Below are positions 23,445 through 43,975 of a DNA stretch of 44,232 nucleotides, piece by piece (the stretch's first letter is position 1; the number at the start of each line of letters is the position of its first letter). The notes under the pieces were generated by a model that was not told the DNA's origin, searched no databases, and was given only the letters and a program-made list of their open reading frames with translations. The DNA is from Balneolaceae bacterium (GTDB taxonomy: Bacteria; Bacteroidota; Rhodothermia; Balneolales; Balneolaceae): positions 1-44,232 of the forward strand of contig SLLL01000183.1 of the NCBI GenBank assembly GCA_007134085.1. The letters are read 5' to 3'. Both the position numbers and the translations under genes were made by a program.

Positions 23445-25064
23445 TCAGAGATGAATAAGGTTGTGGGTTTTGTGTTGTTCCATAGTCATCAAAGCAAGAA
23501 TATCATCCCAAATATTCAACCCATATTTGTTCATAAAATAGATAAAGAGTATCTCTCTCTCCTGAAGATTTCCTCCTGGAAAAAGCTGAGATTTTACTTT
23601 CCGTATTCTTTCAAGCTGAATTTTATCCTGTTCTTTGAGCGATCTGTACACCTTGCCCTTCAGTTTATCCAGTTCGGTTAAAAGATTGGCTCTAACCTTT
23701 TCGGAAGTGCCCTTTAAGCTTTGATCGATAACTGATATTTCATCAATTCTTAGGCGTGATATTTCCTCAAAATCTTTTTTCCAAGTTTTAAAAATTGGTT
23801 CAGGATCAGGAGCTTCAGAACGGTTGATGTATTCCGATTCAAGATCCTCAATTCTCATTGAGTACTCTTCAGCGGAAAATGGAAGTTTTGGAAGTACTCT
23901 GTCAACAGCTGACTCTACCATGGTAGCACTAAAACGAGGCATGATAATGGGCATCGAAAGCCCGAACTCCCGATAGAAATCTTTCATTTGTGCGTAGTAC
24001 GCTACCTCTCCGGGTCCTGCAACATACACTGCACCGGGAAGAAGAAAGTTTTGAAGTACCGGGCGCAGAAAAACATTCGGTGAAAATCTTTCAGGTGATT
24101 TCTCTATTAGATCGAGTAGGGCATCAGTTTTAAGGCTTTTAACGGATCCTTCAGAAAACCAGTCTTCCCCTTCTGCATGAATTTTCTTTCTTGTGCCGTC
24201 ATTATCAATCCAGAACAAATTAGACTCTTGCACCTGCACCTGGGCATGAAAACCAGTCTCAAGCAATCTGGTTGATACATTATTCAGCGCATCAAAAAGT
24301 TGATCAGAATGGCTTACACTTTTCTTTAGGGCATTTGTGGTTAACTCTTTTGCCTGCTTTGAGTTTGACCCTGCAAGAACTACTTCATGGTTTGCAAAAA
24401 GATGTAGAATCAGTTTTCCGAATGAATCTCTAATAGATGAGCCGGGATGGTAACATTCATCAAGGAGGTTCCAAAGATCATCAGAAAAATCAGTTTCGTA
24501 CATTATAGATTTCAGCTCTTCTTTGAGTGTGCTGATTTGATCATCAAAAACAATTTCTCCAACACGGGGAAATTCCTCCAAATCACTTTTTAGTGTAATC
24601 TGCTTCAGTTCATCGCGATCAAACACACCTGCAGTTGCAATTTCTAAGAAATCATGATCTTCATCAGCCAGCCAAAATACCGGAACTGCCGGCTTTCCGT
24701 AAGTTTGCTCAATATGAGTAGCCGTTTTGATAGCGGTGAGAATTTTGAAAACCGTTAAAGGTGGCCCGCCAAAGAGGGTTAATTGCTGACCGGTAACTAC
24801 AGCAACTGCATCATTGGAAGATAGTTTTTGAATGGAATTTTCTACCTGCGGGGAATCAGTAAACTGTGCATTAAACTGGCGGAGAAATTCAACGCTCTTG
24901 ACTCTGTCTCCTTTAAACCTATAATATTCAAGCTTGTTTTTAACTTCTTCGCCATCAAAAGGGTTGGTTTCGAAGAATGGCTCAACCTTTTTGAAGTCAG
25001 AGATGTAAGATTTAAAAAGTGATGAAAATGGCAGCTTTTGAAACGGTATTGAGTTTGATTTCAC
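23445..25064 (-). CDS. bshC: bacillithiol biosynthesis cysteine-adding enzyme BshC
   Basis: Last step of bacillithiol synthesis: adds cysteine to glucosaminyl-malate. 539 residues, normal for the family, GTG start. Conserved segments: VAVVTGQQLTLFGGPPLTVFKILTAI, VPVFWLADEDHDFLEI and LPGAVYVAGPGEVAYYAQM, then a long helical C-terminal region. BshA and BshB are not in the window and must lie elsewhere. It sits in a run with the bifunctional nuclease (1 base before) and the FCL gene (2 bases after), so it is almost surely cotranscribed with both. Bacillithiol use suggests a redox role shared with the peroxiredoxin elsewhere in the window, though this link is inference. Confidence 0.96.
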   Translation of the reverse strand: MKSNSIPFQKLPFSSLFKSYISDFKKVEPFFETNPFDGEEVKNKLEYYRFKGDRVKSVEFLRQFNAQFTDSPQVENSIQKLSSNDAVAVVTGQQLTLFGGPPLTVFKILTAIKTATHIEQTYGKPAVPVFWLADEDHDFLEIATAGVFDRDELKQITLKSDLEEFPRVGEIVFDDQISTLKEELKSIMYETDFSDDLWNLLDECYHPGSSIRDSFGKLILHLFANHEVVLAGSNSKQAKELTTNALKKSVSHSDQLFDALNNVSTRLLETGFHAQVQVQESNLFWIDNDGTRKKIHAEGEDWFSEGSVKSLKTDALLDLIEKSPERFSPNVFLRPVLQNFLLPGAVYVAGPGEVAYYAQMKDFYREFGLSMPIIMPRFSATMVESAVDRVLPKLPFSAEEYSMRIEDLESEYINRSEAPDPEPIFKTWKKDFEEISRLRIDEISVIDQSLKGTSEKVRANLLTELDKLKGKVYRSLKEQDKIQLERIRKVKSQLFPGGNLQEREILFIYFMNKYGLNIWDDILALMTMEQHKTHNLIHL

Positions 25065-31362: not shown

Positions 31363-32133
31363 CTAATTTTCTGTTGAACCGATTGCATATTTGATCCCGC
31401 CAAGAAGGTGCTCAAGAAACAGCGGTTCGGAGAATGATTCTATTGTATGCCCTAATCCCGTATAAAAAGCACGTCCGCCATCAAATTCATGGTACCAGGC
31501 AATCGGGTGATTTCCCGGGTGATCACTTCCTTCAAAACTCTCAGTATCAAGTTTTAAAAGTACATTCACATTTTTGTTCATATACCCAAAGTTGTACCAC
31601 TCATCTACTTTTATCCAATACTCATCAAGGTGTTGCGTGGAGGGATGATCGTGATTCACAACAAAAATTCGGGCTTCATGCACTCCCGGCGGGTGATTAT
31701 CGAAGTAAGCACCTACAAGTTCGCCATACCAAGCCCAGTCGTACTCAGTATCCGTTGCGGAGTGCACACCTGCAAATCCACCACCATTTTGTATAAATCT
31801 TTTAAAAGCCTCTCGCTGAGTATCATTAAACACGGTAAGGGTGGTGTTTAGAAATAATACGGCATCATAAGCGGTAAGATTTTCTTCATTAAAGTATTCT
31901 GAATCTTCAGTCCAGGTAACGTTAAACCCATTGGCTCTGCCCAATTCCACTACAGCGTCTACTCCAGGTTCGATGGAATCGTGCCTCCATCCTTCTGTTT
32001 TTGTAAAAACAAGAACAGAAGCTTCTGCATCTTCAAACTGATGAATCTGAGGTTCATTTTGATTTTCAGGTGAACAGGCAGCTGTACTATTCAGTAACAT
32101 AAGTGGCAGAAATAGAGTTATAAAAGCTTTCAT
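31363..32133 (-). CDS. ThuA-like domain lipoprotein
   Basis: 256 residues. Signal peptide with lipobox LNSTAAC|S, Cys about 20, so a membrane-anchored lipoprotein. The ThuA-like (trehalose-utilisation, GATase1-like) domain follows: VLVFTKTEGWRHDSIEPGVDAVVELGRANGFNVTWTEDSEYF, LFLNTTLTVFNDTQREAFKRFIQNGGGFAGVHSATDTEYDWAWYGELVG, ending GRAFYTGLGHTIESFSEPLFLEHLLGGIKYAIG. In Bacteroidota such secreted ThuA domains are common with sugar or glycoside metabolism, often fused to other domains; here it stands alone. Catalytic role uncertain. Confidence 0.9.
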   Translation of the reverse strand: MKAFITLFLPLMLLNSTAACSPENQNEPQIHQFEDAEASVLVFTKTEGWRHDSIEPGVDAVVELGRANGFNVTWTEDSEYFNEENLTAYDAVLFLNTTLTVFNDTQREAFKRFIQNGGGFAGVHSATDTEYDWAWYGELVGAYFDNHPPGVHEARIFVVNHDHPSTQHLDEYWIKVDEWYNFGYMNKNVNVLLKLDTESFEGSDHPGNHPIAWYHEFDGGRAFYTGLGHTIESFSEPLFLEHLLGGIKYAIGSTEN

Positions 32134-32197: not shown

Positions 32198-33271
32198 TTA
32201 AATCCCGACATTTTCCTGTAACCATTCAATGGTGTCTATATGATCAGGTTTCCACCATATTGACGGATTTTGAGCTTTTGACAGAGGTTCGATTATCATG
32301 CTATTTGATTTTTGTCCGATATAATTCTCAGTAGAATAAACGGCTTGCAAACCATCTTTAAATTTTGAGACAATATCATCCAGTGTATTCTTATCGCCCT
32401 TTATCCATTGCAGGATAAATTTTTCGGAGGGTTTAGAGAGCTGTTCTTCAATCAGAAAATCATCAAGCCATGCCTGCTCAATCTTCATTGCTTTATTGAA
32501 TGCATACCGATGAAAAAGCGAAGGATCCGGTTTTGAATGTTGGGGATTCTTCAACCAGAACTCTTCAATATATTCTGTAAATGAACATTTCCAATCATTC
32601 AACCCAAATGGCGCCACTACAATCGCTATAGATCGGCATCCCGCGCCCCCATACCTAAACACTGCTTCGGTGAGATCGCGCATTGTTTCAGGATGGTTAT
32701 TTGTGATGTAAGCCACAGAAAAGTGTGCAGTTCGAATCAAAGAAGGCGTTGATTTTGTAATGATATTTTTTTCTCTAAGTACTGATGTTACTTTCGAAGC
32801 TGAATCTTCAGATCCCGCAAAAATCAGCGCATCAACTTTAGTAATTTCCAAATCATCTAAGTTCAATACCCAGTTGATCTCAGATTGCAGAATAAGCCCT
32901 GAACTATATTCTAGAAACGCAGGCAGCAGATAGGGATCCTTTCGAGAAATTTTCCCGAAGTAGTTTCCCCCTGTCATCATCACAGAGAGTGCATCTTGGA
33001 AACCAACCAAAGGAAGATTTCCCGCATGGAGGCAAAGAATATCTTTCCCGGAAAGTGAATGCGGTTGTAATCCTGATGATTCTGTCCATTTGTGCAAATT
33101 ATCACCGGCTGTGGCATGCTTTAGTGCTCGGATTTGTTGTTTAACATCCTCAAAACTGAAAAAACCTTCATCAACAGTTTGTTCAATCGCTGTTTTTAGT
33201 TTCATGTTGTCCGGTTGAAACCAGCCGTCAATCGCTTTCGAAAGTTTTTTTATATGATTAGCTACTTGCAT
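32198..33271 (-). CDS. LuxC-like acyl-CoA reductase
   Basis: 357 residues, ATG start. Aldehyde-dehydrogenase-like fold of the LuxC family, which reduces fatty acyl thioesters to aldehydes with NADPH. Diagnostic segments: LCLHAGNLPLVGFQDALSVMMTGGNYFGKISRKDPYLLPAFLEY (nucleotide and acyl region), DALIFAGSEDSASKV and the catalytic Cys212 in FRYGGAGCRSIAIVVAPFG. It follows the LuxE-like gene with a 6-base gap. LuxC and LuxE together form a fatty acid reductase; no LuxA/LuxB luciferase is in the window. Confidence 0.9.
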   Translation of the reverse strand: MQVANHIKKLSKAIDGWFQPDNMKLKTAIEQTVDEGFFSFEDVKQQIRALKHATAGDNLHKWTESSGLQPHSLSGKDILCLHAGNLPLVGFQDALSVMMTGGNYFGKISRKDPYLLPAFLEYSSGLILQSEINWVLNLDDLEITKVDALIFAGSEDSASKVTSVLREKNIITKSTPSLIRTAHFSVAYITNNHPETMRDLTEAVFRYGGAGCRSIAIVVAPFGLNDWKCSFTEYIEEFWLKNPQHSKPDPSLFHRYAFNKAMKIEQAWLDDFLIEEQLSKPSEKFILQWIKGDKNTLDDIVSKFKDGLQAVYSTENYIGQKSNSMIIEPLSKAQNPSIWWKPDHIDTIEWLQENVGI

Positions 33272-33277
33272 CGGTAT

Positions 33278-34270
33278 TTAATCTCGGTCTATCAAAAAAT
33301 TGCAGCCACGAAGATTGTCACTGTTCCAACGGCCCAAAACTTGAAATCTGCCATTTTCATCACTAACTCCCTTATCATCGGTTAAGATAAACGGGCAGGA
33401 ATACAAATTGGCGAGATCGATAATGCCGATTTTCCCCTCCTCGCCCGGTTTACAAATTCGACCGGGATTTCTTGGATCACGAATGGTTATCTGTACCCAG
33501 TGCGGAGTTGTAAACCATTCATCACCGATAGCATACATCTGGCTCAGTAGTTCACACATGCCGTATTCAGAGTGGATGTTTGAAGGCGCCACATCAAATC
33601 CATCCGAAAGTTGCTTGCGTAATTCTGTTTTCGACATCTCCCTTCGATGAGTTTTCATACCACCGGTTTCTATGATCTCAAACTGATTGCTTATGTTGAT
33701 CTTGTTTTCATCAATTAAATCAAGCAACCCAAATGCCGCCCCAAACAACAGCGGAATTTTTCCTTTATCAAGCACATTTGAAATCCACTCATCAATATTT
33801 TCTGTATCGTGATACATTGTACTTAAACCGCAGTCATCATTTTTGATGAGATAAGCCGCCATCCATATCAACGAAGAATGGGGATTGTCAAGATAGCCAG
33901 GCATGTAGCATAACAGGGCGTACTTATCCTTTGGAAAATGGCTGTAAAATGCTTCAGATATTGCATTTTCGTAAAGAGATTTATCAGCTACATAATGCAT
34001 GCTTTGAAGCATTCCTGTAGTGCCGCTGCTTTTGAACATTAAATCAGCATCACTGTTTTCAGTAATGATTTTTCCCAACTGAAAAGCACGGATGGGAAGA
34101 AGCGGTACAGACTCAGGATCAATATCACTATCCATATTAAGCCCGAGTACATTAGAAAAATCGCGGTAGAATGGGTTGTTTGCTATTTGATAGATGTAAA
34201 CTTCCTTCAGGCGATCAGCAAAAGAGATCCCGGAATTGAAAATATATTCTTTCAAATCAGTTTCAGCCAT
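33278..34270 (-). CDS. LuxE-like acyl-protein synthetase
   Basis: 330 residues from ATG 34270 (an upstream TTG at 34279 would add three residues). ATP-dependent activation of a fatty acid to acyl-AMP and transfer to a thiol for the reductase. Family features: FKSSGTTGMLQSMHYVADKSLYENAI (the AMP-binding SSGTTG loop at residues 81-86), FGAAFGLLDLIDE, IETGGMKTHRREMSKTELRKQL and a SEYGMCELLSQMYA motif. This matches the LuxE/acyl-CoA ligase-like family. Gene order luxE-luxC on one mRNA. 60 bases separate it from purD upstream. A weak T-rich run (34312-34319) after purD gives little evidence of a terminator. Confidence 0.88.
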   Translation of the reverse strand: MAETDLKEYIFNSGISFADRLKEVYIYQIANNPFYRDFSNVLGLNMDSDIDPESVPLLPIRAFQLGKIITENSDADLMFKSSGTTGMLQSMHYVADKSLYENAISEAFYSHFPKDKYALLCYMPGYLDNPHSSLIWMAAYLIKNDDCGLSTMYHDTENIDEWISNVLDKGKIPLLFGAAFGLLDLIDENKINISNQFEIIETGGMKTHRREMSKTELRKQLSDGFDVAPSNIHSEYGMCELLSQMYAIGDEWFTTPHWVQITIRDPRNPGRICKPGEEGKIGIIDLANLYSCPFILTDDKGVSDENGRFQVLGRWNSDNLRGCNFLIDRD

Positions 34271-34330
34271 TAGAACCAATCAGATTATAAGTTTACAAAA
34301 CAGGCAAAAACTAAAAAAAAGAGGAGATCT

Positions 34331-35626
34331 CTATAAATTACTTATTCTCTTCAACCCTTTATGCCCAATATCTTTACGGTAGTAACAGTTTTCAAAACTA
34401 ACTTTTTTAACAGCCTCGTAGGTGTTGTCGATTGCGCCGCGAAGTGTTTTCCCACTGCCAACCACATTTAAAACCCTGCCACCATTGGTAACAATATCAT
34501 CACCTTTTTGTGCTGTTCCAGCGTGAAATAGTTGTGCATCGCCGGAAACTTTATCAAGCCCGATAATTACTTTGCCTTTTTCATACTTGAGGGGGTAGCC
34601 TTCACTGGCGAGAACAACGCAACAGCGATATTTATCATCAATTTGAATAGATTTTTCATCAAGGCGTTGTTCGGTGGCTGCAATCATTAAATCGAGAAGA
34701 TCATTTTCGAGTGACGGCAAAATAACCTGGCATTCCGGGTCACCGAACCGGCAGTTATACTCTACTACTTTCGGCCCATTGGCCGTCATCATCAGCCCAA
34801 CATAAAGAATGCCTGTATAGGCTGATTCTTCAAGCTGCATGCCCGTAATTGTTGGATCAATAATTTCAGCCTGAATTTGTTCAAGAAGAGCTTCATTGAG
34901 CAAAGGTGCAGGTGAATATGCACCCATTCCACCTGTATTTAGGCCGGTATCTCCATCACCAATGCGCTTATGATCTTGTGCATAGTGTAAAATATGGGAA
35001 GTGTGGCCGTCGCAAATTACAAAAACGGAGACTTCCTCCCCTTCCATAAACTCTTCAACTACCAGCCTGCTTGCAGCCTTTGAGAGTGTATCATCTTTTT
35101 TGATTGCAAGCAGCCTTTGCTTTACTTCCTCTTCGCTGTTGCAGATAAAAACACCTTTACCTGCTGCAAGCCCATCTGCTTTGAGTACAATTGGATAGGT
35201 TTCTTTTGATATAATAAATTTAAGCGCATCATCATAATCAAGCGAACTAAAAACAGCGAAATCAGCCGTAGGGATGTTGTATTTCAACATGAACTCTTTG
35301 GCAAATTCTTTACTCCCTTCAAGGCGGGCTGCATTCTTTTCCGGGCCAAAAACGGCAATGTTTTTAGCCCTCAAGAAGTCAGTAATTCCGTTTACGAGTG
35401 GGCCTTCCGGGCCAACTACAACCAGTTCCACATTATTTGAATCAACAAATTCGGCAACAGCTTCGAAATCGTTTACATCTAACTGCACATTTTTGCCAAA
35501 TTGTGCGGTTCCCGGATTACCCGGAGCAATGTGTAGTTTGCCAAGCTTTTCAGACTGAGCAAGTTTCCAGCTTATAGCATGTTCCCTGCCGCCTGAACCT
35601 ATTAAAAGAACGTTATACGTATCCAT
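34331..35626 (-). CDS. purD: phosphoribosylamine-glycine ligase
   Basis: Purine synthesis: phosphoribosylamine plus glycine to GAR with ATP. 431 residues. N-terminal LLIGSGGREHAISWKLAQS, VGPEGPLVNGITDFLRAKNIAVFGP, ATP-grasp VLKADGLAAGKGVFIC, DHKRIGDGDTGLNTGGMGAYSPAP and GLMMTANGPKVVEYNCRFGDPECQVILPSLENDLLDL are the PurD signatures. Stands between tpiA (5-base gap) and luxE. Normal length, ATG start. Confidence 0.97.
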   Translation of the reverse strand: MDTYNVLLIGSGGREHAISWKLAQSEKLGKLHIAPGNPGTAQFGKNVQLDVNDFEAVAEFVDSNNVELVVVGPEGPLVNGITDFLRAKNIAVFGPEKNAARLEGSKEFAKEFMLKYNIPTADFAVFSSLDYDDALKFIISKETYPIVLKADGLAAGKGVFICNSEEEVKQRLLAIKKDDTLSKAASRLVVEEFMEGEEVSVFVICDGHTSHILHYAQDHKRIGDGDTGLNTGGMGAYSPAPLLNEALLEQIQAEIIDPTITGMQLEESAYTGILYVGLMMTANGPKVVEYNCRFGDPECQVILPSLENDLLDLMIAATEQRLDEKSIQIDDKYRCCVVLASEGYPLKYEKGKVIIGLDKVSGDAQLFHAGTAQKGDDIVTNGGRVLNVVGSGKTLRGAIDNTYEAVKKVSFENCYYRKDIGHKGLKRISNL

Positions 35627-40321: not shown

Positions 40322-41381
40322 ATAAATCTATTCCATATAGCTGTTGAGTGATGCAATGAATGCTCCCCTGCCCCCAAACAAGATCAGCACAGGGAATTCC
40401 AGCCACCACTCTTCCGGGAAAATATTTTTTAAAAAGTGAAACAGCCTGTTCATCATATCTTTCATCATAAAGAGGCAGAAGAACCACTCCATTGGCAATA
40501 TAAAAATTTGCATAGCTTGCAGGCACGTATTCTGACCCATCAACAGTAGTACCCTCTATTTTAGTTTTGGGAAGTGGCAGGGTAACAATCTCGAACGGTT
40601 CTCCTGCGCTGTTTTTAGCACTTTTCAGAATTTCGTAATTCTCTTGCAATGATTTGTAATTCACATCATCAGGATTGTCCGAAATCATCGTCAAAATGGT
40701 GTTTTCATTTAAAAATCGGGATAAATCATCAATGTGTCCATCTGTATCATCACCCGCCAGCCCGTCTTTTAGCCAAATTATCTTTTCAGCACCCAGATAA
40801 TCTGCCAGATAGCCTTCAATTTGCTCTTTACTTAGATGAGGGTTACGATTCTTGTTCAGCAATACAGATTCGGTTGTAAGAAATGTGCCCTTTCCGTTTG
40901 TATCTATACTCCCCCCTTCGAGCACTATTCCCGGGGTAAACTTCTCAATTCCAAAAGCTTCTGAAAACCAACCGGGAAGAGCATTATCTGCATCATAAGG
41001 TGGATATTTGCCCCCCCAGGCATTGTACTCCCAGTCCGTTATTGCAAATTTTTGTTTTTTATTCTGTTTGATGAAAATAGGCCCGCAATCTCTTGCCCAA
41101 AAATCATTTACAGGCGTGCTGAAAATATGTACAGCAGACAGGTCAATTTCCTGTTCAATGAATTTCTTTACGATTTCATCAGTATCAACTTTGGGTTCTA
41201 CAAGTAGAACAATCGGTTCATAGAGATGCAGGGCTTTGATGATTTCGACGTAAACCTTCTCAACCCGCTCCAACCGTTCACCCGGCCATGTTTCTCTGTT
41301 CGCTGGCCAGTGCAATTGTGTTGCTGCATGTGTTTCCCACTCAGCAGGCATGCGGTATCCAAGTTCTTTCGGTGTTTTCAT
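40320..41381 (-). CDS. aguA: agmatine deiminase / peptidyl-arginine deiminase family
   Basis: Hydrolyses agmatine to N-carbamoylputrescine and ammonia. 353 residues. N-terminal MPAEWETHAATQLHWPANRETWPG, WARDCGPIFI, LEGGSIDTNGKGTFLTTESVLL, DGHIDDLSRF and catalytic Cys343 in GQGSIHCITQQ at the C-terminus match the guanidino-modifying fold. Its start overlaps the stop of the secreted nuclease gene (ATGA), so they are cotranscribed. No N-carbamoylputrescine amidase lies beside it. Cytoplasmic. Confidence 0.95.
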   Translation of the reverse strand: MKTPKELGYRMPAEWETHAATQLHWPANRETWPGERLERVEKVYVEIIKALHLYEPIVLLVEPKVDTDEIVKKFIEQEIDLSAVHIFSTPVNDFWARDCGPIFIKQNKKQKFAITDWEYNAWGGKYPPYDADNALPGWFSEAFGIEKFTPGIVLEGGSIDTNGKGTFLTTESVLLNKNRNPHLSKEQIEGYLADYLGAEKIIWLKDGLAGDDTDGHIDDLSRFLNENTILTMISDNPDDVNYKSLQENYEILKSAKNSAGEPFEIVTLPLPKTKIEGTTVDGSEYVPASYANFYIANGVVLLPLYDERYDEQAVSLFKKYFPGRVVAGIPCADLVWGQGSIHCITQQLYGIDL

Positions 41382-43975
41382 CGTATCAATAGCATTTTTT
41401 TGGTTTTATTTTCTCCGCTGCTAAGCTCAACCCGGTATAAATAAGTTCCACTGGAGAGATTGCCCGCATCAAACGCAACGGTATGATTTCCCGCAGAGAA
41501 TAAAGTTCTATCAGAAAGCAGGGCTACTTTTCTTCCAAGAATATCGTACACACGAATACTAACCTCTGATGGTTCAGAAACCGAAAAACGAAGAGTTGTT
41601 GAAGGGTTGAACGGGTTGGGAAAATTAGGATACACAGTAAAGCTCTCCGGTATTTCGAAATCATCATCTTCACTATCTGCAAATTGGAATCTTGTCCATA
41701 CAGGGGCATGATCGCTTGTGGAGGATATAAAACTTGCGATATAGTTAGGGTTTTCAACACGCTGTGAGCCATTAATATGTTCATCAATTAGTTCATTCGT
41801 AATAATAATGTGATCAATCATGGAACGAAACCGGCCAACCAGATAAGAGGCAAAACCCCTGTCTTCCAAAATTTTGGTTACGGCATAGTAGTGCTCATCA
41901 TCCAAAAAAACCTGATAGGGGCTCACCTCTTCATTATAGGTTGAGAAATTTAGCTGATCGTTAAAGTCTCCAATAAATAGAATGTTATCCTCTCTTTTTT
42001 CACTATCCAGATAAGCTTTTAACGAGGCAGCGGCATTTTGTCTTCGGAAGTACGATTCCCTGTCTCCAAACGCTTTTGCATGTACATTGTAGCTTGTTAT
42101 TCTCCGTGTGATTCCTTCTATGGTAGCATCAAATTCAAAAAACAGTGGCAAGCGGCCGGCCCAGTCAAACGATTCCTGACCATCTGTTAGCAAACCCGCA
42201 TCAACTGAATCGATTACCGCTGTTTTGAAGAGATATCCGGTGCGCTGACGCTGTGAATAATTCGCCAGAAAACCACGATAATCGGGTAAACGCTCCACCA
42301 GTGTATTGAACCGATCAACGTTTGCAATCTCCTGAAGGGCATACAGATCAGCATTAATGGTTTCTATTACCTCTATCACATTATCCATCTGTTGGTTAGG
42401 TTCGGGACCCAAATCATTTGCACCAAACCATTCGATATTCCAGGTTACAAGGTCGAACGTAAGGTTGCGGGGAATATCCTCTCCCTCGATTTCATAAGGA
42501 ACTACTTGTAAATCCAGATTGTTTCTGGGTTTTAGCTGATAAACTCTGTTGAATCGGTCAACAACTCCGGTTATTTCTACCGGTTCATCAGGTATGGGTG
42601 CCCCAATCAAATCAGTAACAGAATTATCTATTCTGATTACACCGCTTCCTGTAGGATCGGCAATAGCATAATTTTGATTTCCCTGAAATACCCCATCTGC
42701 CTGAAATGTTACATTTTCAATGGTTACCAATGCACTTTCAAAATCACCGCTATTCATTTGGGCGATGGAAATTAATTCAGGCTCAATCTCCCCTGCTTGT
42801 CGTTTAGTTATTTCATAGCCAATAGCACCATCGTCTTCTGTAGCAGCTATTTGCCGAAGAAATGTACCTGATGTGCCGCCAATTGGGTTGAACTCGGTAA
42901 GCGGCCCCGAAACTCGAACTCGGTCACCCCTTTCTGCATCTGCGTGTAGTGGTTCATAAAATACTGCGATACCCGCTGACTCATCCTGTATAAAAGCAGG
43001 CCCATCAAACTCATTGGCAACGGTTACAATACCCTCAACCGTTACCCTTGTACCAAAAGGAACATTTCGGGTTAGTGATATTGGAATGATCTGACTTCCG
43101 TCAATAGCAAAGGTCTGCAGTGAAAGCACAAATTCAGGCTGATCGGGATCGTTGGTTTGGATGGTTAGCTCATCCTCGAACAAGCCACCGATATCTGAAA
43201 AGAATGTTATAGTTAAATCAGCAGATTCTCTTGATTGAAGAGCTACGGGAAGGTTTTCTGATAGTGAAAACTCCCGATTGTTCATCAACTTAACCGATGA
43301 AATATCAAGATCAGGCACACCGGTATTTGATAGCCTCAGTATAACTTCACTATTCTGATTGATATTCACCGGCTCAAAAATAACTTCAGCGCCCGGTGGT
43401 AACTGCTCTTGATCAGTCCTAACCATGAGCCTGGGGGTATCCGATAACTCAATGAACGGTTCAATGGTAACATCATCAATATTAATTCGGTTACCTGAGG
43501 CTCTTTCAAACCGAAAACGAACCGGTTCTGAAATATTTGTTTCCAGCTCATAGAATTCCAGAGCATTCTCTTCGGTAAGTGGAATAGGATCTCCTATACT
43601 GTTCCATGAATTTCCTTCATCTGTGGAGTAGAAAATTTGAACTGATCCTCCGCTATCTCCAGAAAAACCAGAATTTGCTCCCCAGAAGCTTAATACGCCG
43701 GCACCCTCTTCAGCATCAAACTGCATCTGCAGAAAGCCATCTCTGATGCGTATTGAGCGAGAACCAAATTTTCTGTCTCCATCAGCCTGCCCTACAAGAG
43801 CATCATCAAGGAGCCACTCTCCGGTTGAAAATGTAACCACCCCAGCTGCATAGGCATTTTTTGAGCCTGCTTCAAAATCTTCAAAAATCTGTGCCTCTGC
43901 CCGTAGCGTGAAGAGTAAAAAAATGTGGATTACAATCGCTGCCTGAAATGCAAATGGGTACCTTCTAAAAATCAT
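41378..43975 (-). CDS. T9SS-secreted endonuclease/exonuclease/phosphatase-family protein
   Basis: 865 residues. Signal peptide to about residue 29 (LLFTLRAEAQ). Domain order: a beta-sandwich (about 32-170, binding-type), an Ig-like domain (about 190-300, 'choice-of-anchor D' pattern with LRLSNTGVPDLDISSV), an OB-like segment (about 305-440), the EEP catalytic domain (about 505-760) and a C-terminal type IX secretion sorting domain (about 780-865; YPNFPNPFNPSTTLRFSV, YDILGRKVALL, GTYLYRVEL). EEP catalytic residues are all present: VTWNIEWFG, LQEIANVDRF, YNVHAKAFGDR, FIGDFNDQ and SDHAPVWT. Likely an extracellular nuclease or phosphodiesterase. Cotranscribed with aguA. Confidence 0.92.
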   Translation of the reverse strand: MIFRRYPFAFQAAIVIHIFLLFTLRAEAQIFEDFEAGSKNAYAAGVVTFSTGEWLLDDALVGQADGDRKFGSRSIRIRDGFLQMQFDAEEGAGVLSFWGANSGFSGDSGGSVQIFYSTDEGNSWNSIGDPIPLTEENALEFYELETNISEPVRFRFERASGNRINIDDVTIEPFIELSDTPRLMVRTDQEQLPPGAEVIFEPVNINQNSEVILRLSNTGVPDLDISSVKLMNNREFSLSENLPVALQSRESADLTITFFSDIGGLFEDELTIQTNDPDQPEFVLSLQTFAIDGSQIIPISLTRNVPFGTRVTVEGIVTVANEFDGPAFIQDESAGIAVFYEPLHADAERGDRVRVSGPLTEFNPIGGTSGTFLRQIAATEDDGAIGYEITKRQAGEIEPELISIAQMNSGDFESALVTIENVTFQADGVFQGNQNYAIADPTGSGVIRIDNSVTDLIGAPIPDEPVEITGVVDRFNRVYQLKPRNNLDLQVVPYEIEGEDIPRNLTFDLVTWNIEWFGANDLGPEPNQQMDNVIEVIETINADLYALQEIANVDRFNTLVERLPDYRGFLANYSQRQRTGYLFKTAVIDSVDAGLLTDGQESFDWAGRLPLFFEFDATIEGITRRITSYNVHAKAFGDRESYFRRQNAAASLKAYLDSEKREDNILFIGDFNDQLNFSTYNEEVSPYQVFLDDEHYYAVTKILEDRGFASYLVGRFRSMIDHIIITNELIDEHINGSQRVENPNYIASFISSTSDHAPVWTRFQFADSEDDDFEIPESFTVYPNFPNPFNPSTTLRFSVSEPSEVSIRVYDILGRKVALLSDRTLFSAGNHTVAFDAGNLSSGTYLYRVELSSGENKTKKMLLIR

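Follow-up and report, generated by a model that had tools for sequence, protein, structure and literature searches.

What does a bacterium make with an enzyme pair best known from bioluminescence when no luciferase lies beside it? The question is raised by a stretch of 44,232 nucleotides, here called the window, from a Balneolaceae metagenome-assembled genome (MAG; 3.10 Mb in 261 contigs, 91% complete), in which a LuxE-type and a LuxC-type open reading frame (ORF) both lie on the minus strand with 6 bp between them. Based on sequence comparisons, structural models and analogy with studied enzymes, we consider it quite probable that the pair forms a carboxylate reductase of two components that depends on ATP and NAD(P)H. 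In this reading its function belongs to the vertically inherited core of Bacteroidota and is most likely neither luminescence nor part of a wax-ester or alkane pathway. The pair is part of the usually single-copy core set of a major bacterial class, and if its product were named, a so far hidden section of the core metabolism of environmental Bacteroidota would be explained. Its parts in the window are as follows.

33278..34279, minus strand: LuxE-type acyl-(protein) ligase with a PaaK-like small ANL fold (Pfam LuxE, PDB 7xc6_E, AlphaFold2 (AF2) model)
33302..33304, minus strand: codon of LuxE Cys326 in an RGC motif (translation RGCNF; aligns with the C-terminal Cys of 7xc6_E)
32198..33271, minus strand: LuxC-type acyl reductase with an aldehyde-dehydrogenase fold, ATG start (family profile, AF2 model compared with 7xc6_A)
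32636..32638, minus strand: codon of LuxC Cys212 in a GxGCR motif, putative thioester/hydride-transfer nucleophile (translation AGCRS)

LuxE likely starts with the ATG at 34270 (330 aa), the start taken in the original prediction; residue numbers given here count from the TTG at 34279 that opens the longest ORF (333 aa). The original prediction for this locus, made from the DNA letters, had described adjacent LuxE and LuxC genes. They are indeed present, and both occur in all 26 genomes of the window's family (f1) with intact motifs, which rules out a chance or decayed pair.

The window LuxE scored 41.1 bits against Pfam PF04443 (cut-off 24.9), and its best named relative, 64% identical, comes from a Balneolaceae MAG. 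In the PDB it matched 7xc6_E with E=2e-13, and with E=6e-26 when the family profile was used. The AF2 model of LuxE, built from 36 sequences (pLDDT 89.8), had PaaK as its best match (Z 24.7, rmsd 3.1, 293 aligned residues). 7xc6_E was absent among the Foldseek and VIA matches listed, where PaaK-type enzymes were present, and we do not hold this against membership. The protein carries SSGT, TGGMK and YGMxE-type motifs. Cys326, the equivalent of the C-terminal Cys that acts as acyl carrier in studied LuxE, was kept in 185 of 185 LuxE sequences.

For the LuxC-type protein, the identity is settled by family evidence; Pfam alone would not have sufficed. Among 27 aligned family sequences, 23 matched PF05893 at E<=0.01, a set that does not include the window LuxC. 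The top PDB match of the family profile was the LuxC chain 7xc6_A (E=7e-7), and the same chain led both the Foldseek and the VIA searches with the AF2 model (built from seven sequences, of which two are partial; pLDDT 86.9), with a VIA Z of 30.4 and an rmsd of 3.2 over 347 aligned residues, followed by an aldehyde dehydrogenase at 24.7. Core residues were widely kept: Cys212 in 120, Asn85 in 119, Gly153 in 122 and Ser154 in 116 of 122 sequences, a count that draws on 124 LuxC loci with two truncated LuxC excluded and at least one genome present twice (L135 = L155). Cys212 aligns with a cysteine in 7xc6_A, in luminous LuxC and in the LuxC from the plasmid operons described below. Sequence and models together confirm the pair as a LuxE-type and a LuxC-type enzyme whose catalytic residues are intact.

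Adenylation, acyl hand-over and reduction are known from the studied LuxC-LuxE system. By analogy, the LuxE-type protein would adenylate a carboxylic acid (acid + ATP -> acyl-AMP), and the acyl group would then move to its C-terminal Cys326. From there it would be handed over to Cys212 of the LuxC-type protein, which would reduce the thioester with NAD(P)H and release the aldehyde. Sequence and fold support every component that this route requires. As LuxE-type and LuxC-type proteins with intact active sites are co-inherited here in the absence of LuxAB, they are most naturally read as a reductase that turns an acid into an aldehyde. The original prediction had the pair make fatty aldehydes; its aldehyde is retained in our reading, whereas the fatty nature of the substrate is unproven.

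Enzymes that could use the aldehyde were looked for. No LuxA or LuxB was seen beside the pair, and the single PF00296 match of the genome, at 91% completeness, was a luciferase-like monooxygenase of TIGR03858 (Atu2307/SP_0267), a subfamily other than LuxAB; the earlier statement that luxAB is lacking thus agrees with our data. Wax ester synthase/diacylglycerol acyltransferase (WS/DGAT, PF03007) was found neither in the window's genome nor in any of the 26 genomes of f1, and in 12 of 198 genomes overall. Likewise, aldehyde decarbonylase (PF11266) was found neither in the own genome nor in f1, and in one of 198 genomes overall. The same whole-genome search gave 0 matches with PF05893 and PF04443 in the window's genome although its LuxE passes PF04443 in hmmscan. 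Since the search overlooked the window's own LuxE, the negatives for PF03007 and PF11266 are good but not absolute, and other enzyme families with wax-ester or alkane activity were not part of it.

The distribution of the pair points to a core function. Across 198 genomes of the phylum, LuxC was matched in 92 and LuxE in 87, including all 26 of f1, and the window's genome holds one of each. In the class of genome G021, which we read as Bacteroidia from the likeness of the G021 neighbourhood to Flavobacterium loci, 262 of 295 genomes had LuxE and 261 had LuxC; in this, the main class of the phylum, roughly nine genomes out of ten carry the pair. Two to three matches occurred in 14 of the 262 LuxE and 11 of the 261 LuxC genomes; otherwise the genes were mostly single. 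Both genes were found in 252 genomes and neither in 24, while 10 had LuxE only and 9 LuxC only; these sets were compared by eye, with some members deduced from gaps in the genome numbering, and count genomes rather than losses. Eight of the nine LuxC-only genomes were under 90% complete. Among the ten LuxE-only genomes, four were <90% and six >=95% complete, one of the latter (G347) with only a weak LuxE match (9.8e-8). The 24 genomes with neither gene fall in eleven families (f61, f68, f77, f82, f88, f94, f96, f97, f98, f99 and f101), f61 with a 0.5 Mb genome. Given this co-occurrence and co-absence, LuxE and LuxC probably act jointly in a core function that is inherited vertically. The original prediction overlooked that the pair has its place in the core of the main class and is no local oddity. 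That the neighbours explain nothing fits a class-wide core function, as opposed to a local cluster.

In the window's family and its sister family f2, the pair lies on one strand with <1 kb between the genes in 26/26 and 4/4 genomes, respectively, as judged from coordinates. LuxE and LuxC are thus neighbours in Balneolales. In the Bacteroidia loci examined they are separate, the two genes being within four genes of each other at 0 of 80 loci. In a comparison across 83 genomes, the LuxE and LuxC trees ran in parallel (r=0.88, vs at most 0.10 after permutation).

Several observations weigh against a jointly acting carboxylate reductase. The window LuxC alone reached 12 bits with PF05893, under the cut-off of 21, and at 357 aa it is about 120 residues shorter than LuxC, which has about 480. 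Although strong, the co-occurrence link has exceptions. No LuxC was found in five good genomes that have LuxE (G223, G286, G322, G324 and G411), and six genomes of the window's class (G003, G008, G058, G030, G147 and G195) had a weak LuxC-like match and no LuxE. As the genes are separate in Bacteroidia, the operon argument is not available there. Finally, the parallel trees show vertical inheritance but by themselves not interaction, since any two genes inherited vertically should give such a picture.

The closest LuxE proteins that we found outside the phylum lie on plasmids. A tblastn search of 72,556 plasmids with the window LuxE gave 41 records, with 25-28% identity in the 25 matches listed; the window LuxC had no match in the same plasmids, and the window LuxE had none in phages. 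With an Azospirillum LuxE as query we obtained 28 records, one of which was the lux cassette on E. coli K-12 pOX38. In 25 of the 27 non-lux records, a short-chain dehydrogenase/reductase (SDR) gene is found no more than ~5 kb from LuxE; in the other two, both from lactobacilli, it is annotated. The LuxE-LuxC-SDR operons, for which we know of no name, are hosted by plasmids of Pantoea, Azospirillum, Pseudomonas, Niallia, Priestia, Lactiplantibacillus and Levilactobacillus. Thirteen of the 27 loci were fetched for an operon and riboswitch scan. LuxC directly follows LuxE at 12 of these, and in L328 (Pseudomonas) both genes are in pieces. A thiamin pyrophosphate (TPP) riboswitch lies upstream at all 13, above the gathering score at 12 and with 49.0 bits (E=1.5e-6) in Priestia; two lactobacilli loci share protein accessions. 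The riboswitches, all upstream of a plasmid LuxE-LuxC-SDR operon, are located as follows.

L311, 5685-5812: TPP riboswitch
L312, 5653-5785: TPP riboswitch
L313, 1390-1497: TPP riboswitch
L314, 4758-4866: TPP riboswitch
L324, 2947-3054: TPP riboswitch
L325, 2667-2775 and 2854-2963: two TPP riboswitches, upstream of the ThiW-bearing operon of Niallia
L326, 4705-4834: TPP riboswitch
L327, 4682-4809: TPP riboswitch
L328, 4686-4813: TPP riboswitch
L329, 4685-4811: TPP riboswitch
L330, 2707-2836: TPP riboswitch
L331, 2686-2815: TPP riboswitch
L332, 2718-2850: TPP riboswitch

No TPP riboswitch was found at the lux cassette, nor, at gathering score, at any of 50 Bacteroidota core-pair loci, the window included. 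Uptake genes are present at five of the nine plasmid loci with operon annotation, namely an ATP-binding cassette (ABC) system in L312, L314 and L332 and an NCS2-type permease in L313 and L324, while four Pantoea loci have none in the operon. The ABC binding proteins of L312 and L314 are NMT1/THI5-like. In the Niallia locus L325, the two riboswitches are followed by ThiW (TIGR02359, 175 vs 84 bits), an NCS2-type permease, LuxE, LuxC and the SDR. We predict that the TPP-riboswitch operons encode a thiamin-precursor carboxylate reductase that is presumably unrelated to light. Found in three other classes (Gammaproteobacteria, Alphaproteobacteria and Bacilli), they predict a carboxylate-reducing salvage step for vitamin B1 precursors that is directly assayable. 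Among the matches listed in open-licence PMC, we found no paper joining a TPP riboswitch with an acyl-CoA reductase. A thiamin-regulon paper from 2002 reportedly lists a TPP-regulated oxoacyl reductase, 'oarX', and parts of the TPP result may thus be in print.

Against a Bacteroidota LuxE profile, nine LuxE of the TPP type scored 184-216 bits, about twice the 95 bits of luminous LuxE. The LuxC family of the window is far from both types, with 15-41 bits for TPP-type LuxC and 34 for luminous LuxC. Mean distances in an unrooted LuxE tree with one luminous sequence were 4.1 between Bacteroidota and TPP type, 5.5 between Bacteroidota and luminous, and 4.7 between TPP type and luminous. By sequence, Bacteroidota LuxE likely groups with TPP-type LuxE. 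The TPP-type operons hold the closest LuxE found outside the phylum, with the same motifs and with LuxE directly before LuxC as in Balneolales. They differ from the window pair in their riboswitch, their SDR and, sometimes, uptake genes, none of which accompanies the window pair; downstream of it lie a ThuA-domain ORF and holA. TPP-type LuxC is also full length (about 482-499 aa, the fragment in L328 apart) and distant from the window family.

With the LuxC-LuxE complex of Photobacterium phosphoreum (PDB 7xc6), the window pair shares an ANL-type ligase with a C-terminal Cys and an aldehyde-dehydrogenase-fold reductase with a nucleophilic Cys. In contrast, luminous LuxC-LuxE has a LuxAB partner, of which none was found with the window pair, besides the longer LuxC. 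The LuxE motifs also differ, being TGGMK and YGMxE-type in the window family vs TGGGWK and FNQVE in the two luminous LuxE compared. The scores likewise remained far below NCBIfam equivalog level, with 40 bits for the window LuxE vs a cut-off of 550, and no LuxC match up to E 0.01.

LuxE-domain proteins also occur in flagellin-glycan clusters. Genome G029 of family f21 has a further LuxE-LuxC set (L097 4702-12699), accompanied by SDR and AMP-ligase within an aminotransferase/sugar-transferase cluster; no TPP riboswitch was found there at gathering score. The window pair shares with such O-antigen-type systems a non-luminous LuxE and, in L097, also LuxC. Unlike the L097 set, the core pair is not part of a cluster of the sugar-biosynthesis type that includes SDR and AMP-ligase. 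RfbN of V. cholerae is cited in PMC4772473 as a LuxE-domain protein of the O-antigen cluster. The same paper reports that deletion of the LuxE homologue AS87_03730 of Riemerella anatipestifer led to slow growth and ~80-fold attenuation; its abstract leaves the biochemical role open. AS87_03730, a LuxE-domain protein of Flavobacteriia, presumably belongs to the same orthologous family as the core LuxE. If it is an orthologue, LuxE is therefore non-essential there but matters. Among the matches listed in open-licence PMC, PMC4772473 was the only paper on the role of a LuxE homologue in Bacteroidota.

Between a fatty and a non-fatty acid as substrate of the proposed reductase, we hold the choice to be about even. 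A fatty acid, e.g., an iso-branched one, could yield a fatty aldehyde or alcohol for an envelope lipid of Bacteroidota, which is well possible but not what we would presume. The only LuxC-LuxE complex among the PDB hits, 7xc6, is a fatty acid reductase and also the best fold match of LuxC. The wide and mostly single-copy presence of the pair and its absence from a 0.5 Mb genome (G219) would suit a lipid or envelope role, and the R. anatipestifer phenotype reported in PMC4772473 is compatible with this. However, luminous LuxE scored well below TPP-type LuxE with the Bacteroidota profile, WS/DGAT and aldehyde decarbonylase were missing from f1 (0/26), and no lipid gene emerged as a constant neighbour of the pair, with part of the neighbours annotated. 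Given the TPP-riboswitch setting of the nearest LuxE found outside the phylum and the missing WS/DGAT and decarbonylase, the fatty part of the originally predicted product finds no support. The riboswitches at 13/13 relatives, vs 0/50 Bacteroidota loci, make a non-fatty substrate a serious option. The family might reduce imported or biosynthetic heterocyclic or short acids, and the substrate could then be a small acid, perhaps related to a cofactor or an envelope sugar; we give this a similar standing, plausible but short of an expectation. The NMT1/THI5-like ABC systems, NCS2 permeases and ThiW in some of the plasmid operons fit this, as do the second LuxE-LuxC-SDR set in its sugar-transferase/aminotransferase cluster and serC-serA adjoining LuxC in many f21 loci. 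Yet the riboswitch is missing at 50/50 Bacteroidota loci at gathering score, neither an SDR nor a transporter is a constant neighbour, and LuxE identities to the TPP type of 25-28% do not carry the substrate across.

It appears unlikely that the pair stops at an acyl thioester or at acyl transfer, without reduction, the LuxC-fold protein then acting as an acyl transferase. In principle, LuxC is able to hand its acyl group on to other thiols, and the LuxC protein here is shortened. Against this stand the kept residues of the aldehyde-dehydrogenase core (Asn85, Gly153-Ser154 and Cys212 in 119, 122, 116 and 120 of 122) and a LuxC-fold match that spans 347 residues. We may speculate, rather tentatively, that LuxE-LuxC is a general carboxylate-reductase module whose substrates extend well beyond fatty acids. 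Under TPP-riboswitch control and together with the SDR, it would salvage thiamin precursors in Pseudomonadota and Bacillota (imported pyrimidine or thiazole carboxylate -> aldehyde -> alcohol). In Bacteroidota, a divergent form lacking this riboswitch would provide a small aldehyde for normal growth.

The genes directly flanking the pair in the window are the following.

34331..35626, minus strand: purD, upstream neighbour of LuxE (TIGR00877, 519.8 bits)
31363..32133, minus strand: ThuA-domain ORF, downstream neighbour of LuxC (PF06283, 247.9 bits)

The minus-strand order is gatB, an ORF with a weak ResA-like end, tpiA, purD, LuxE, LuxC, the ThuA-domain ORF, holA and a sigma factor. The purD side is conserved in most of 20 fetched Balneolaceae loci, replaced in f2 and different in Bacteroidia, while the ThuA-domain ORF, among the loci compared, sits behind LuxC in no genus but that of the window. 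In agreement with the original prediction, these neighbours, which differ in f2 and Bacteroidia, do not explain the pair, and neither purD nor the ThuA-domain ORF is thought to be part of the LuxE-LuxC function.

In other lineages the neighbours differ. A 4Fe-4S ferredoxin lies head-to-head with LuxC at 63 of 124 LuxC loci and at 0 of 20 in L131-L150 (Balneolaceae). As an obligate partner it was rejected, being kept in the LuxC-less families f61, f77, f82, f94, f96 and f99 and absent from five other Balneolales genomes tested. The window's MAG itself contains a Bacteroidia-type ferredoxin gene (G000:C6:1061-1405, E 2e-53), which was absent from five other Balneolales genomes checked and is either on a contaminant contig or a recent transfer. 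Behind the ferredoxin beside LuxC, many of L231-L270 encode a predicted secreted protein of ~300 residues (e.g., L251 1351-2256; alignment A5). On the LuxE side, a lipoprotein of ~170 residues is head-to-head with LuxE at 53 of 185 loci (33/40 in L271-L310, 2/80 in L151-L230) and probably is a stable neighbour; none was found in four genomes of the window's own family tested. Weaker matches, apparently paralogues, remain in LuxE-less genomes. Neither ferredoxin nor lipoprotein neighbours the pair in the window's family, and since ferredoxin genes and weaker lipoprotein matches are retained where LuxC or LuxE is missing, neither defines the function. The lipoprotein-like family carries a DGDGDIG motif, e.g., at L273 6096-6605. 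The serC-serA neighbours of LuxC are restricted to certain lineages, and a pyridoxal or serine link drawn from them was unsupported. A link to the type IX secretion system (T9SS) was also rejected, as SprA was found in 154 of 198 genomes, many of them without LuxE, and the profiles do not match.

Around the pair, promoter-like sites were as frequent as expected by chance (7, with 7.7 in shuffles), and terminator-like sites numbered 4 vs 1.8 in shuffles (standard deviation 1.6). An Rfam scan of the whole window gave nothing at gathering score. Elsewhere in the window, an ORF of 865 residues (41378-43975) has a region resembling endonucleases/exonucleases and ends in a T9SS sorting tail, with a weak match to choice-of-anchor D in addition; it likely is a secreted nuclease. 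At 23445-25064, the window encodes BshC of bacillithiol biosynthesis (TIGR03998, 423 bits).

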